From positions 248,001 through 312,000 of the forward strand of contig BDSI01000066.1 in the NCBI GenBank assembly GCA_003117195.1: a stretch of 64,000 bases of DNA. The letters run 5' to 3'. Origin of the DNA: Eudorina sp. 2006-703-Eu-15 (taxonomy: Eukaryota > Chlorophyta > Chlorophyceae > Chlamydomonadales > Volvocaceae). Both the position numbers and the translations under genes were made by a program. Under the pieces are notes generated by a model, which saw nothing but the letters and a program-made list of their open reading frames with translations, ran no database searches and was not told where the DNA came from. Every line of letters begins with the position of its first letter. The first letter of the stretch is position 1. Positions 10,123-22,619 of this stretch are shown one piece after another.

Positions 10123-10350
10123 GGCTACTGGTCGGAATGCCCCACGGATGGAAGGTGACGCGATGCGGGCTACTGGTCGGAATGCCCCACGGGTGGAAGG
10201 CGACGCGATGCGGGCTACTGGTCGGAACGCCCCACGGGTGGAAGGCGACGCGATGCGGGCTACTGGTCGGAACGCCCCACGGGTGGAAGGCGACGCGATG
10301 CGGGCTACGGGTGGAAGATGACGCGATGCGGGCTACTGGTCGGATTGCCA
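10123..10350. repeat. 45-bp minisatellite, four full copies plus partial copies
   Basis: Tandem units of 45 bp start near 10123, 10168, 10213 and 10258, each beginning GGCTACTGGTCGGA and containing CCCCACGGGTGGAAGG. A fifth copy near 10303 has lost about 18 bp internally, and a partial sixth follows. Unit length (15 codons) and the internal loss (6 codons) are both multiples of three, so both strands stay open and would encode 15-residue repeats. No flanking exon was found to make it coding. Confidence 0.9.
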
Positions 10351-12477: not shown

Positions 12478-15462
12478 ATGGCTAAGTTTGGAGACTTCCC
12501 GGAGTATGGTGTCGCGGAGTTGTATGCGGCAACGGGTGGCTTTCACAAGCTCTGCCTGATCGGCGAGGGCGGTGAGTATCAGCAATTTGTCTGAAATGAT
12601 TGTTACAAACAAGTTGAAGGACGAGTTCGTAATGTGAATACGCGAACGTGGTCCCGAGACCTCAACGGTTCGCAGCGTAAACGTCCGTATTCGCAGCCGG
12701 CTCTCATAATACAGGCCTTGCGATCTTCCACTTTCATGCGCAAGCATGTTTGCAAGCGTAACGTTGCTTGTCAAGAACCTTGGTGCTGCTGCGGTTTTTA
12801 GCGTCTCCTCGGCGTGTTCTTGCGCCCACCCGGAAAACCCCCTCGTGGACGTCACTGCGGTTGGTTGCCCCTGTGCAATGCTTTGAACGCCTTGGCTGCT
12901 GCATGTGGCCGCTTGTGCGCTGTCCTTTCGTCCGGTCCTACTTCACCTTCGTGCGTCAAGGCGCTGTCTTCAAACCCCTGGCCGCGATACCGCCCCCGCC
13001 GCCCCACCACAACCTCCGCTGCCAGTGCCGCTTTCATGATCTGTCCAATGCATGGCCGCTACGCCACCCTTCCTCGCCCGACCAGGCGCAGTAAGATCAG
13101 TGCGCTGTGCTAGATCAGGTCCCCAACCGGGCCGCGTGAATACTCCGGCGCTGCTGTCGCCCCCCATTCCCCCCTCCCTCTCACCGTATTTCGCTTGAGA
13201 CCCCTCTCGGTTGCACCCACTACGGCGATGGCGATGGCGTTCATCTGGGCTGTTCTTTCTCTAAGCATCCTCCCAATTCATTCATTTATCCATCCGTCCG
13301 TCCCGGCATCACAGGGTTCGGCAAGGTGTACCGGGCCATGATCAACTACACCCCGGTGGCGATCAAGGTGGGTCGCTGACCCGCGGGTCGGTCCGGGTGG
13401 TCGGGGGGTTTGGTGGCACGGGCGATGAGGGCCTCTGAGTTCCGAAGTTTCGCGGTGGGGTTACTGTGGTTACTGGGGGGTGGGCCGCCGGGAGTCATCG
13501 GCTTCGTGGGATGCCCCGCCTCCCCACCCACGCAGCTACCGCACATGCCGCCCCTCCCAGTGTCCCGGTCACCGCTCTCCACGCACCCAAACCTAAACCC
13601 TGCCTGCTCGCTCAGTCTCCAACCCTTGCGCCCCTGGCCTCCTTCGGCGCACTCCCTGGCACAACCCCTAGGTACTGGATCCACAGGGGTTGCAAGGCAT
13701 CGCCGAGTTCAAAAACGAGATCCAGCTGGCCCGCAGCATCCACCACCCGCACGTCGTGCGGCTGCTGGGCTTCACCGGGGATGTGGAGCCGGGGGGCGGT
13801 GCGGACGGCGGCACTCAGTGCCTGGTGTATGAGCTCCTCACCAACGGCAACCTGGAAGAACGATTGCTGCGGCGGGTGGGGACGCGGGGGTGGGGACGAG
13901 GGGGTGGTTCCGGGATGTGAGGCGGGAAGAGGATGGCCGAGGATGGGTGTGGGGCCACGCAGTTAGGATGTGCATGGAGGTGACAGGGAAGGAGAGCCTC
14001 GCATTGAATTTTCGTCGCAAAGCCCGGAAGCCTGCAGACTGTATCCCCCTTAGACCTTGACCAGCTCTGAAGTGACTCAAGCAGCAAGGTAAACAGTATG
14101 GCTGCGGACGGTACCCCCGGCATCTCTACATGCAACCCCTCTCTCAACCCTTCTCTCGTCCTCCCGCCCTCCCCGTCCTGGGGCCCTCCGACCTGCCGCA
14201 GGCCGCCTCCACCCCGCCCCTGCTGTGGCCGGTCCGAGTGCGTATAGCCGCCCAGATGGCCGACGCGCTGGCCTACCTGCACTCCCTGGGCATCATCCAC
14301 CGGGACATCAAGCCCGCCAACATGTTCCTGGACGCCAACCTGGACGCCAAGCTGGGAGACATTGGGCTCGCGGCGCTGGATGGCTGGAGGGCAGGTGCGG
14401 GGAGAATCGGGGGACATCGGCGGGCCTCGGTTTGGTGCTTTTTTGCGGTTTCCCTGTCCCGACTGACAAATGGGACAGGGGAGGGCAGGGCAGGCGGAGC
14501 GGAGAGGGACCCCGGGGGGACGGCGGAGGCCCGGGGTCGGGGCCGTGCCGTGGCAGGGATCGCTTATGCGGGCTCTCGGGCCCTGGGGTGGTGCACCTGG
14601 GTCGCTGCCAACAACGGGGGCTGAGGCGGCCCTGGCACACCGGCCGAGCAGCACAGGACAGGACGCGGCCCTTCGCCAAAAGTAGGAAAGCACCAACAGT
14701 GCCGGTGCAGCTGGGCTTAGCGAGCAAACAAGCAGGGAAGCTTGGTGCGACGGGCGGAGTAGCAGGGAAGGCGTGAGGGGCGTTGGCGAGTTCAGTGCCC
14801 GAGAAAAAAGTAGAAGAGTCAGAAGGCAAACGAACGGACAACTGGACACGGGAGTGACTCCGAAGGGACGCTGCGGCGGCGGTGGTGGTGAGGAGCGAGT
14901 GAAGGCACGAGGAGTCGTGGACCTCCACGCACCGGCCATGCACGACGCGGGCGGGCCGGGCAGGGGTCCCCATTGGAAGCACGCTTTCGGGGCACCGCCC
15001 CATCACACGGGGTGCCTCTGCCCCCGCTCTCTGCCGCTCTGTCTGTCTGTCGGTCGCTCTGTTCCAACGCCCGCAGGCGCCCGCCGCGCCGCCGACGAGA
15101 GCGCCGTGGGCACGTGGGCCTACCTGGCGCCCGAGTACAAGTCCGGGGGCATAGTGAGCCCGGCCACCGACACCTGGGCGCTGGGGCTGTGCCTGCTGCA
15201 GCTGGTCACGGGGAGAGACCCGCGGGACCTTGTACGGCAAGTACAGGAGTCGCTGGAGAAATGCACGCTGCCCGAGGTAGGCCGCGCGCCATTGCGGGCG
15301 TCACCGCGTTGCGTCACGCGACTTGGGACCGTTGGTGTCTTTCGTGGGGAGGTAGGTCGATCGACCGGGACTGCGGGAAGCCTATTGGGCTTTTGGTCAG
15401 ACTGCCGCAGTGGCCACACCGTCCAAACCGTCCGCTTGTGTCCGACCTGAGTTGATTCATTC

Positions 15463-16496: not shown

Positions 16497-19400
16497 ATGG
16501 ACGTCCTGCTGTCAGCCGTTGAGGTGGTACGCAGGGATCCTGAGGACTTGGAGGGATGCGAGACACTTATTGTCGCGAACTATCAGCGCAACAACTGGTT
16601 AAAGGTTGGGGCAGCTCTGCTGGTGATTCATGACACAGCCCTCTTCAAGAAATCAGGCGCGGACTCGTTCTCAAACTACATTTCTACGAAGGCAGACTTT
16701 GGCTTCGGCCCTCGCCAAGCACTCCGCCTCCTTGCGGCGACGAAGCTTGCCAAGATATTTCCTCCGACAATTGCTCTCCCGACAAGCGAGCGCCAGGCAC
16801 GTCGGGCTTATTTCAAGGGGCTCTTCGCTTGGGCGTGGCCCATGGGCGCGTTCAACTCGAACCCCCACGAGAAGCATATTCTGCCCTCCTTTGGCGTCAT
16901 TATTATCAGGGACATCATTTCTGAGCTACTGATAGGCATTTGCGTGTCCTTGACGCGGTGGCGACAGCGCACTGCGTCTTGCGGTTGTAACCCGACGACT
17001 TCAGCGGAGGCGGCTAGCACCTTGGGTCGTGTGGCGTCAACTTGCTTGGACGATCATATGACGCCCACCATGCGGCATGTCCACCTCTTGAGACACACCC
17101 CCAGGCATGGAAAACCCGCAACCCTTTCCCACCCTGCTGATCATCACATGGCCCGTCGCTCCCTGCTCCCCGGTTCGCACGACATCTGACCCTCAGGTCC
17201 GCGCCTTGGTGGGTCTCGAGGCCCACAAGGCCATCAAGACCTGGGTGAAGGCCAACCTCATCAGCCAGGAGACCGGCGTGCCGCTGACTCACCGCCTGGT
17301 GGAATCGGTGCTCTCCAAGGACATCCCAGAGTCGTACCGAGCCGCCTGCGCGGACTGGCGCGACTACGTGAGCCCCGATTCGGAGTTTTATCGGACACCG
17401 TACCACATCGTGGCGGCCACCAAGCGCCTCTTTGGGGGCGCCATCGACCTTGACCCTTGCAGCGATGAGCTGGCACAGGTGTGTTTCTTAGGCAGGCAGA
17501 ACAGGAGTGCGTGACATGCGAGGGGCCGATAGGCGCCCAATAGCACAGGTGTGTGTTTGAGTATGTGTTAAGCGAGGAAACCCGCCCGACCCAAATCAGT
17601 TACCAGCGGCATACAGGTGTGTGATCCGCCGGAGGCCGTGGACTGCATCCACATAACGACATAGGACACTGGGGCCGGTGCCGGCCGGTCAGCATCCAGC
17701 TTGGTCTGGGTGGCCGCCCATTTGGGTTCCGACGGGGCGGCACCGCGGTTCGTGCACCTTCGGGAACCCGGTGAACTGCGACTGAGCCACGGCGGAAGTG
17801 CAGCTGTCTCACCCAGGACCCATTCCAGGAACCCCACTCCACCCTGCCTTGCCCCTATCTCCCCCCGCCCCGCCGCATGGCGGCCATCACGCGGCAGGTG
17901 GGCGTCCAGTCGGGCCGCTTCTACACCGCGGAAGACGACGGGCTGCAGCCGGGCAACCCCTGGTCCGGCCGGGTGTACGTCTTCCCGCCGGTGGGCATGC
18001 ACGGCAACAACATGCTGCAGGTGCGGAGGGCGCCGCTGTTCATGGTCTGTGGGGGGCCCGAGCGTGGGACGCGCGTCCAGGCTGCTCAGTCTGGGTCGGC
18101 ATGGGGCGTCCGAGCTCGCCAGGGCCCCCAGGCCTGCCTCCCGCCTGCCGCACGTGTTCATTACCCGCAGCGTGCCACGTACCGGTGCCCGCTTGTGTGC
18201 CCGACGCGGAGCCGCAGACGGGCTCGAGACCGCGTCAATCAGGGGGGCGTCATGTCCCGACACGTGGTCGGGGGGGTATGGATAGGGTCCCGCCGTGGTC
18301 GGGGGGGGTTTGTCATGTCCTCGTTAAGAGTCCACCTGGGTGACCCAGTTCGGCCCAGTAGAGCACCGCATTGGCGGCCCCCGCGAGGCCGGTGCGGCAC
18401 GACCGCAGTGCGGCCCACCGCGGGAGCGAGCGCGCGGCGCAGTCAGTCTTCGGGGCGGCCCTCACGCAGGGCGGTCGCCGCGTGGAGGTCAAGATCCAGG
18501 TGGGATCTGCTCACCGTGGGGGATCTGCTCCCCGTGCATCCCGCCTCCTCGGATGCACTCCGTCCACATCCCTCCCTACCCAACCCATCTCAGCGCCCCT
18601 CTCAGTACCCGTCTCCAATGAGCCCATTCACCTGCAACGAAGCCCATCCACCTGCCCTCCCCGCCGTCCGCCCGCCCGCTCGCCCCCAGGGCCTCTTCCT
18701 GGACCGGGCGATAAACGAGTTTAAGGCGGGCCGCGTGACGGAGGTGGTGCTGCTGCTCAAAGTGGCCATCGGCCAGAAATGGTTTGGCAAGGTGTTCGAC
18801 TACCCTCACTGCTTCCTGGCGGATAAGCCCATCAAACCGCAACCGTTGCCGCCGCCAGGCTGGGGCGTGCCGGAGCTCAACTCTCCAGCCGCGGCGCTGA
18901 TGGCGGCCACCACTGCGCTGCTGAGCGCGACGCCCGCTGCGAGTCCAGGGAGGGATGAGGACGAGAGGGGCAGTGGCGGTGCGGGAGGGGGCGGCGGCGG
19001 CGGGAGCGGCGGGGGCGGGGGCGGCGGCCGGGGAGGACGGGGCGGCGGGGGCGGCCGTGGCGGCCGGCGGAGGAGCAACATCCGCAACGATGATGACGAG
19101 GAGGAAGAAGAGGAGGATGGGGCGCCGTCGCGTGCGGCGGGACCGTCGAGCAGCCGCAAGCGGGAGGCGCCCGCGCCGCCGCCGGCGGAGGCGCCCCGTG
19201 CATCATCGCGGCCGCGTCGGTCCAAGGCGGCGGCCGGGGTGGCGGCGGCGGCGGCCGCGGCCGCGGCCGCGGAGGATGAAGAGCTGGAGGTGGAGTTGCC
19301 GCCTGCCAACCCCACGCCACGTCCCAGTGCTGCGGAGCGGGCCGCCGCGCGGGCGGCCAAGGCGGCGGCCACCGCGGCCGCAAAGCAGCGACAGCAGGAG

Positions 19401-22400
19401 CAAAAGCTGCTGGCGCAGCAGCAGCGGCAGCAACGGCAGCAACAGCAGCTCCAGGAGCAGCAGCAGCAACAGCAGGAAGAGGCTGCGCAGCAGCTGCTGG
19501 CGGCGCAGCAACAGCAACAGGACGCGGCGGCAGCCGCTGCCGCCGCCGCCGCCTCTGACCCTCTGGCGGCGGCGGCGGCCGCTATGGGTCTGGGCCCCAT
19601 ACCGCTCAAGACCGAGCCTCAGGTCCTGGGCATGATGGGGCCTCACGGCGAGATTTCGATGGCGGGTCATATGGACCCGGCAACCGCGGCGCAGTTGGCG
19701 GCGGCGGGCATACCGGGCTTCGGCGCCATGCCGGCCGGTATGTTCGGCGCGCCGGGCGGCCCCGGGCCCGGCGGCGTCGGGAACCCCATGCTGGGCCAAC
19801 CCGGCGGTGGCATGATCGCCGGCTTTGGACCCATGGGTCACGCGGTGCCGATGCACCTGGGCCACCCCATGGGTCTGGGCCTGGGGGGCTTGGGGCTGGG
19901 GACGAGCCAGCAGCTGGGCCTGTCGGGCGCGATGCAGATGCAGATGGGTATGGGCGTCGGACCCATGGGTCACCCCATGGATGTGCTGCAGCAGCCGGGG
20001 GGGGGCATGGGCGGCCTGCCGCCCGGTATGGCCCTCATGATGCCCGGCATGGGGATTCCGGGCGGACCCATGGGTCAGCTGGACCCGCAGGGCGCCTTCC
20101 CGGCGCTCGCGTTCCCCGGCGCGCAGGCGTTGGGCATGGGGTTGCCGGGCATGACGCTGCCGGGCCAGATGCACGGCGGGCTGCAGCAGCTTGACCCCCA
20201 GCAAGTCAACGCTGCGGCCGACGCCGCGCAGCACCAACAACAACAACAGCCTCCGCAGCAGCAGCTCGACCAGCAGCTCGACGCGGCCGCGGCAGCGGCG
20301 GCGGTGGCGGCGCAGCAACAGAACCACCACCAACAAGAACAGCAGCAACAACAGCAACAGCAGCTGCTGTACGCCGCGGCGCTGCAGCAGCATCACCAGC
20401 AGCAACAACAACAACAACAACAACAACAGCAGCAGCAGGCGGACGGGCTCACCGCGGCTTCCTTGCTGGACGCGGCAGCGCTCGCGGGCGTGACCCCCCT
20501 GGACACCTCCTCCCTGGCCGGGATGCACTCCCTTTCCCTGCCCCTTCCGCTAACCCTGGGGACCACCGCCCTCACGGGAGTACCCCCCTTGGACACATCC
20601 TCGCTGACGGGGGTAACCTCCCTGGACATGGACATGGACCAGGTGAGCATGACGGACGCGCTCACCATGGCGGCGGCGCAGCTGGCGGCACTGGTCGAGG
20701 GCGCGGGCGTGCTGGCGGCTCCGTCAGTGGACGGTCAGCTCGGAACGGGGACGGGGACGGGTGCGGAGGCGGCGATGGCGGCGGCGCAGGCGCAAGCGGG
20801 GCAGCTGGGGACTGGCGGCGTGCCGATGGTGATGGGGTCTGACGGCACCGGCGGCGGAGCGGGCGTCGGAGGGGGGCTGCACGGCCTGGCGGGTCAGGCG
20901 GGGGCCGCGGATGGCGGCGGCGGCGGCGGCGGCGGTGCTATGGGCGTTGACCTGTCGGTGGCCCCGCTGCTGAACGCGACTAGCCAGCAGCCCCTCCTGG
21001 AGCAGCACCAACCTCACCCTCACCCTCACGCTCACCAGCACCTCCATGACCAGCAACAGCAACATGAGGCGGCTATGGCCCAGGCGCAGGCGCAGCATCA
21101 GGCGGTGATGGTGCAGCTGCAGCAGCAACAACAGCAACTGATGTTAGAGCAGGTACAGCTGCATGCGGCGGCGGCGCAGCAGCAGCAGCACCTGTTGGCC
21201 TTAGAACAAGCCGCCGCCCAGCAGCAGCAGCAGCAGCAACTCCAACAGCAGGAGGTGTCTCTGGAGCAGCACCAGCAGCAGCACGCCGCGGCGATGCAGC
21301 AGGCGGGGACGCAGCTGGCGGTACTCAGCCAGGCGCACATGCAGATCCATTGCCAGGAGGTCGGCGTAGGGCAGCAGCAGCAACAACAACAACAGCCCCA
21401 CCATAGCCTCGTGCCGCTGGAGCAGCAACAGCAGCAGGAACAGCAACAGCCACAGCAGCAGCAGCACCACCACCACCACGACCACCCCCACCCACAATCG
21501 AACATCGACGCCGTCATGCAAGAGGCAGCTCTCGCAGCCCTGACCGCTCCCCCGGCCCCATCAGAACAGGAACCGGATGCGTCCGGCGGTGGCGGTGCGC
21601 AGGTCGGAGATGCGGTAGCGTCCATGGCGGCGCCCGTGGCGACGTCGCAGTCATCGGCGGCGGAAACAGCAGTGGCCACGGCTGCGGATGCCGCTGCTGC
21701 ACCCGGTGTGGCGGCGCCCGATATGGCAGGTGCGCCGCCGGAGCCCTCGGGTGCGGTCGCGGTCGCTGCGGTGGCTTCCGAGGCGGCCATGCTGCTGACT
21801 GCACCTCCAGGGGGCCTCGTGGCCAAGGTGGACCAGGGCGGGGTCCCTCAGGTGACCAATGCAACAGTTGGGCGTCTGGAAGCAGCCCAGGATGCCGCCA
21901 TGTCGCAGCCGGTTGCTGTCAAGATCGCGGAGGAGGCCGAGGAGGCCGCGGGTGCGGCGCCGGGACCCGCCCCGTCGGACCCCGCAGCGGCGGCGGTGGC
22001 GGGCGCTGCGGCAGCGACGGACGCGTCACCCTCCGCACAGGCCACCGAACCAGCTGAGCCCGGGGCGCCCCTGGTCCCCCCAACACCCCAGGGCGTCGGC
22101 GCCGGTCTGCATCCGGACGGCGCGGAGGCGCCGGTCGCCGCCGCCACTGCTGCCGCCGGCACCCCGCCGCCGGCGACGCTTCCCACCCCGCCGACCCAGC
22201 CGATGGACACCTCGCCTGGGCCCGGTGAGGCTGCGACGGCGGCGGCCGCCGGCCCCGCGAGTGAAGCGCCAACCGACCAGGCCGGCGAAGCGGGTTCGAG
22301 CTCCGCGGCCGGGCCAAGTGCGGGTGCGGTCAGGGGCGCTTCAGACGGCGGCGGCGCGGGCGGTGGCGGTGCTGGGCCGTCCAACGGCGGCAGCGCTGGG

Positions 22401-22619
22401 CCGTCCAACGGCGGCGGGGGCCGTACGCGGGGATCCGGCGCGGGGCTGCCGGCGCGGGAGCCGCGGCCCGCCAACACGGGCGGCCTGCCCACAGACCCGT
22501 CGGAGGTGTACAACCCGCGCGGCAGCGTGGTCGTCTACATCGGCAAGAACGCCAAGATGTTCTGTCAGATATTCTCGGAGCTGGGCCACATCCCGGGCTA
22601 CAACGCCTGGGCCAAGTAG
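16497..22619 (+). CDS. Dam-like DNA N6-adenine methyltransferase-fold protein with N-terminal helical domain and giant Gln/Ala-rich insertion
   Basis: Exons: 16497-16796, 17197-17478, 17898-18020, 18690-22619; 1544 aa. Intron 1 is GC-AG (CAG|GCACGT), chosen because it restores SERQVRALVGLE; in-frame TAG sits nine bases before the ATG. Residues about 15-125 resemble a helical domain common in phage and bacterial ParB/methyltransferase-linked proteins (NNWLKVGAALLVI; sFsnYistKadF; SERQVRALVGL). Residues 160-290 follow the phage Dam family: EFYRTPYHIV, IDLDPCSDELAQ (183-194), FYTAEDDGLQPGNPWSGRVY, then FPPVG (223-227) where active enzymes have NPPYG, then FKAGRVTEVVLLL and FDYPHCFL. The last 40 residues (SVVVYIGKNAKMFCQIFSEL) resemble the end of the same fold. 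Between them lie about 1,200 low-complexity residues: Gly/Arg, acidic, polyGln, Gly-Met-Pro and Pro/Ala. DIRS retroelements also encode Dam-like domains, but no reverse transcriptase or recombinase is adjacent. Catalysis is doubtful. Confidence 0.85.
19381..21490 (+). repeat. CAG/CAA-rich low-complexity coding tracts (polyGln, polyAla, polyHis)
   Basis: Within exon 4 of the Dam-like gene. Dense CAG/CAA runs at about 19390-19530, 20230-20440 and 21040-21475 encode Gln stretches with Ala and His. A Gly-Met-Pro-rich segment (repeated GPMGHP-like words) lies at about 19590-20180. CAA and CAG are mixed, and the frame stays open for nearly 4 kb. Confidence 0.9.

Follow-up and report, generated by a model that had tools for sequence, protein, structure and literature searches.

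Adenine methyltransferases of the Dam family (Pfam PF05869) are bacterial and phage enzymes acting on the N6 position of adenine in DNA. The window analysed here, a stretch of 64,000 nucleotides from the green alga Eudorina sp. 2006-703-Eu-15 (contig BDSI01000066.1, positions 248,001 to 312,000), contains at 16497-22619 (+) a four-exon gene, termed B, that encodes a protein of 1544 amino acids. The B protein shares with the Dam family the DLDP, DDGL, WF and closing Y.G..F...F..G positions but differs from it in the FPPV that stands for NPPY, in an insert of about 1,200 residues and in the four exons. The same order as in B, a helical N-terminal domain with [PT]SERQ.R.L followed by the Dam domain, is found in two-part proteins (P0016, P0026; several are named 'ParB family' or 'phage N-6-adenine-methyltransferase') at roughly 30% identity along most of the sequence, although these keep NPPY, are devoid of the insert and are encoded by a single open frame. 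DIRS retrotransposons also carry a methyltransferase domain, beside reverse transcriptase/RNase H and tyrosine recombinase, whereas B is a four-exon gene of its own.

Degenerate motif IV sequences have been described in other adenine methyltransferases. METTL14 and the degenerate subunits of N6-methyladenosine writers resemble B in keeping the methyltransferase fold around a degenerate motif IV (EPPL; PMC5023411), but METTL14 belongs to the MT-A70 family, is the stable partner of an active paralogue and has no ParB-like domain. Phytophthora DAMT2 (EPPH) resembles B as a paralogue among eukaryotic adenine methyltransferases in which motif IV has changed; it belongs however to another Pfam family (N6-adenineMlase, PF10237), and the P. 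infestans protein is reported as active (PMC6211444), and therefore warns against reading activity from the motif alone. No published description of the B protein was found in the literature searched. The reading favoured here, with a probability of about 0.55, is that B is a domesticated ParB-like/Dam protein that works as a DNA-associated regulator, probably in the nucleus and without catalysis, and is provided with a disordered arm.

The Dam-family domain and motif IV of B

The spliced head of B matches PF05869 along residues 161-269 with 30.4 bits, above the curated cut-off of 28.1, and PHROG 111 'DNA methyltransferase' with 57.9 bits. The Dam match is more than chance, since two database proteins align with B over the whole head. 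Hence, the Dam-family domain proposed in a preliminary description of the locus is upheld by the profile score, while its phage-type label finds no support in the strict NCBI sense: in a scan of three relatives of Eudorina B, the TIGR01712 cut-off for phage N-6-adenine-methyltransferases (97.05 bits) was reached neither by the Volvox reticuliferus orthologue P0073 (17.2 bits) nor by the A-type P0001 (28.1 bits, see below), and the bacterial-type P0016 likewise stayed under it, at 49.5 bits.

At the position of the catalytic NPPY, the Eudorina gene reads FPPV (TTC CCG CCG GTG, 17982-17993, +), exactly where it had been placed before. The search for orthologues used residues 1-290 as its key under full-length limits, and only proteins of about 850-2700 amino acids were visible to it. 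Two full-length B orthologues were recovered, P0073 (1226 residues) and P0074 from Astrephomene (1018 residues). Because both hold the identical FPPVGMHGNNMLQ around motif IV, FPPV is not a sequencing error. The head of Eudorina B is identical at 274/290 positions (94.5%) to that of V. reticuliferus and at 266/290 (91.7%) to that of Astrephomene, and the third pair agrees at 262/290; with heads 90-95% identical across three species, the suggestion that the gene is maintained is borne out. None of the circumstances considered in the preliminary description as contrary to its proposal was encountered: FPPV, and not NPPY, stands in 2/2 orthologues, the residues of exon 3 are present in both orthologue models, and the Dam profile is matched above its cut-off. 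Five more partial rows are of B type by sequence (P0009, P0013, P0019, P0125 and P0126), and none of the five reaches the motif.

The loss of the catalytic pattern [ND]PP[YFW] in all three B proteins is accompanied by a well preserved framework. Twenty-six columns were examined, 25 of them invariant or near-invariant in a 52-row ParB-like/Dam alignment, plus residue 4 of the motif, and 23 are kept in Eudorina B. Besides the two catalytic residues, at which all three B proteins depart, Eudorina B and V. reticuliferus differ by one A to S change at a column common to 52/52 rows, and Astrephomene B by one T to S. The DLDPCS block (17446-17463, +), kept by the bacterial relatives and taken as motif I for S-adenosylmethionine (SAM), has its D, L, D, P and S on columns common to 49-52 of the 52 rows, all retained in Eudorina B. 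Its role in SAM binding by B is presumed from the enzyme class.

Paralogue A, the algal family and constraint on B

The same genome contains a paralogue, A (contig C163), with four exons, 347 residues and NPPS as motif IV. A-type proteins occur in two Volvox species, Pleodorina, Gonium, Astrephomene, Tetrabaena, Edaphochlamys and three Chlamydomonas species, and A and B are both present in the Eudorina genome, V. reticuliferus and Astrephomene. Of the seven compared over the methyltransferase part of A, Pleodorina is nearest to Eudorina (87.9%), followed by V. reticuliferus (83.9%).

Motif IV was surveyed in 146 database proteins, 26 of which were assigned to algae from their name or sequence; 16 of these cover the motif, the 10 that do not were dropped, and Eudorina A and B were added to give 18 algal sequences. 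NPPS is found in seven and FPPV in three, while NPPA, NPPC, NPPT, NPPY, HPPS, FPPI, HPPV and NAPG occur once each. The NAPG sequence is that of P0087 (Sanguina aurantia), a more distant green algal relative. The motif change is not universal, because A of C. schloesseri reads NPPY, the only one of the 18 to do so. The other 120 proteins are unnamed or bacterial and include P0015, of unknown source: NPPY is present in 85 and NPPF in 5, 14 have a gap at this site or cannot be aligned there, 6 have another motif with P in third place and Y or F at the end (NAPY 2, NHPF 2, SPPY 1, NSPY 1) and 10 are further variants (NPPG 5; NPPS, HPPS, IPPA, NPAF and NSPR one each). Thus, the changed motif to which attention had been drawn in B stands, but as one case of a pattern of change that extends across the algal family.

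In a tree of 22 rows built with the motif masked, and from which Tetrabaena and P0014 were left out, B forms a single group (100/99) and A another (92/95), and the algal group, P0015 included, is fully separate from five bacterial-type relatives (100/99); the base of the tree is unsure owing to long branches. At least three changes of residue 1 and at least nine of residue 4 are required on this tree. A topology uniting B with P0006 (FPPI) was rejected by the approximately unbiased test (p-AU 0.005).

Over the same three species pairs, identity in the methyltransferase part is 91/86/84% for B versus 84/69/65% for A (Fisher p = 0.09, 0.0009 and 0.0006), the stretches compared being slightly unequal (140 versus 123-124 residues) and the pairs sharing species; in the N-terminal part of the same pairs no difference in identity between B and A was found. 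Therefore, judged by these identities, the copy deprived of catalytic residues is at least as constrained as A.

Gene structure, ParB-like domain and insert

The splicing model is based on orthologous gene models, with a start codon at 16497, a stop at 22617-22619 and all introns in phase 0; all features are on the + strand. Exon 1 (16497-16796, residues 1-100), supported by frame and orthologue match, encodes the first part of the ParB-like helical domain. Intron 1 (16797-17196; CAG|GCACGT ... CCTCAG|GTC) is of the GC-AG type, so that the GT donor given previously has to be corrected; its position is common to B and A, the paralogue model being joined at the same residue, but the donor of A is GT. 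Orthologue P0073 joins the same residues as Eudorina B across intron 1 (PTSERQ|VRALV). In P0009 and P0125 an apparent read-through of intron 1 continues with Ala-Arg, which would fit a GC donor and suggests that it is present in other B genes too. Exon 2 (17197-17478, residues 101-194) contains the end of the ParB-like domain, the TP motif and IDLDPCS; exon 3 (17898-18020, residues 195-235) runs from RFYTAEDDGL to VYVFPPVGMHGNNMLQ; and exon 4 (18690-22619, residues 236-1544), open for 3930 bases, encodes the remaining methyltransferase fold, the long insert, the closing strand and the stop.

The first 144 residues of B appear, with moderate support, akin to the DNA-binding domains of ParB/Noc proteins, the ParB-like fold being a modelled one. 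Sequence similarity to the ParB/Spo0J/Noc domain is below significance, and neither the 299-residue head nor the alignment of the N-domain matched the ParB CTPase domain (ParBc, PF02195). Residues 1-150 are identical at 146/150 positions between Eudorina B and V. reticuliferus. The domain account of the preliminary description was accordingly incomplete, the ParB-like module at residues 1-150 being missing from it.

Within the fold, before its last strand, lies an Ala/Gly/Gln-rich insert (18882-22454, about residues 300-1490) of 1191 residues in Eudorina B, of which A makes up 21%, G 15% and Q 14%. Low-complexity inserts occupy the same place in P0073 and P0074, followed by the same closing block. 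In the P0074 model the matching stretch has mostly a predicted local distance difference test score (pLDDT) <50, and long helices are placed at 426-483 and 517-539. A conserved block in the insert, basic and then acidic (SRKREA..SRPRRSK..A-run..EDEE; 19131-19316), is identical at 41/62 columns across three B-type proteins and would resemble a nuclear-localisation signal. The closing strand, helix and stop (22491-22619, residues 1503-1544) show 26/42 identical columns in the same proteins. As modelled in P0074, which keeps the entire methyltransferase fold, the equivalent strand (988-993) and helix (997-1004) fall where residues 991-1010 have pLDDT 93-97, and the last 42 residues would close the fold interrupted by the insert. 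The orthologues have the same layout, in agreement with the earlier proposal of a C-terminal strand closing the fold past the insert.

Function of B, alternative readings and other loci

The two-part layout shared with bacterial-type relatives suggests that the algal family was acquired from bacteria or phages. A bacterial-type ParB-like/Dam protein would have entered an ancestor of these green algae and been duplicated, and B would have been kept for a non-catalytic job after replacement of its catalytic pair. Catalysis is probably lost in B, since replacement of the first motif IV residue is reported to abolish methylation in TspGWI N473A (PMC2700111) and RlmJ D164A (PMC3814359) and METTL14 is an inactive partner of METTL3; the non-catalytic role put forward before is in this respect supported as probable. 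The activity reported for DAMT2, in one species of Phytophthora, is a point of caution against this interpretation. We infer that B is located in the nucleus, binds DNA via its ParB-like domain, and perhaps also via the methyltransferase fold, and has a regulatory role in which the long disordered arm would act on transcription or chromatin. More tentatively, as the SAM-site motif is intact and the catalytic pair replaced, the fold could constitute a SAM- or methylation-sensitive DNA-binding module with an activation or condensate arm inserted within it, which would make B a regulator of a type new to eukaryotes.

A nuclear gene for a bacterial-type DNA-modifying protein, in a family whose catalytic motif has changed several times along independent lineages and with one paralogue conserved no less strongly without its catalytic residues, would clearly exemplify the conversion of an enzyme to a structural or regulatory function. 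Volvocine algae serve as a model for how multicellularity arose, and Chlamydomonas for the biology of N6-methyladenine (6mA); in green algae, such 'Dam' annotations call for an assay before they are taken as 6mA writers, and B is a candidate for testing in algae that can be transformed. The connection with 6mA in Chlamydomonas made in the preliminary description is unproven: the head search returned no Chlamydomonas B-type protein within its size range, and MT-A70 exon matches are present on three contigs of the Eudorina genome. MT-A70 enzymes are treated as the eukaryotic 6mA writers (PMC12695648), and would more plausibly write 6mA in this lineage.

Several other readings have to be weighed against a domesticated, non-catalytic regulator. 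B might be a non-catalytic partner of A or of another methyltransferase, positioning the nucleic acid as METTL14, with a structural RNA-binding role (PMC5023411), does for METTL3. The co-occurrence of A and B and the whole fold of the P0074 model speak for such a pair, but its interaction is so far only conjectural, and A is itself without the aromatic residue here and in most of the species surveyed (NPPS/A/C/T), so that the pair would need unusual chemistry. To our knowledge METTL14 has no counterpart of the long insert, which also counts against a partnership, and we regard it as unlikely. It is rather doubtful that B reads 6mA or a DNA sequence, with the old active-site pocket holding a base that it does not methylate, and possibly senses SAM. 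The intact DLDPCS block and the mostly intact framework would suit a reader, F and V might form the wall of a hydrophobic pocket, and 6mA is reported in Chlamydomonas (PMC12695648), with V. carteri listed in a review as having it at GATC (PMC7076483); yet this reading is conjectural, and in METTL14, the nearest precedent, the pocket is described as occluded (PMC5023411). That B still transfers methyl groups by means of an atypical motif IV, perhaps to a different substrate, is improbable: both prolines, motif I, the fold and strong conservation are in its favour, as are the differing motif IV of RNA dimethyltransferases (PMC3814359) and the DAMT2 report, but neither the polar residue in first place nor the aromatic one is left, and the TspGWI and RlmJ mutants changed at the former are inactive.

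The two remaining readings are highly improbable. Decay into a pseudogene, or a wrong gene model, could be suspected from the non-canonical GC donor and the low complexity of exon 4, but not easily reconciled with the length of its open frame, the similarity of the heads and the identical residue joins of the orthologue models. An origin of B as a piece of a DIRS element is equally hard to sustain. The Dam profile has 68 matches in the Eudorina genome, and 20/20 loci inspected by eye look DIRS-like, their methyltransferase domains coming after an RNase H-like end; the 14 matches to the B head, however, are all B, A or contig-end copies, without any DIRS-like locus, the frames of the B gene showed neither a reverse transcriptase nor a recombinase, and B has its own N-terminal domain, introns and orthologues.

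Among the DIRS-like loci, nine (L001-L009) retain NPPF and eleven (L010-L020, on contigs C44, C2, C10, C39, C147, C279, C70 and C132) have GCPPL at motif IV, the Dam match of the latter being identical to that of L010 at 372-375 of 375 bases; in L012, one of these copies, reverse transcriptase-like and recombinase-like frames are open by eye despite GCPPL. The contig-end copies are three intronless NPPF relatives (C33:1073830-1075002, C47:2419-3591 and C533:16473-17531) adjoining tandem units of about 1.45-1.5 kb, and are perhaps subtelomeric. Within the window, a tandem repeat with a 45-base unit is located at 10123-10302, and pieces of a protein kinase gene lie upstream of B on the same strand (14076-15450), one matching PF00069 with 48.9 bits and another, below the cut-off, with 24.8 bits.
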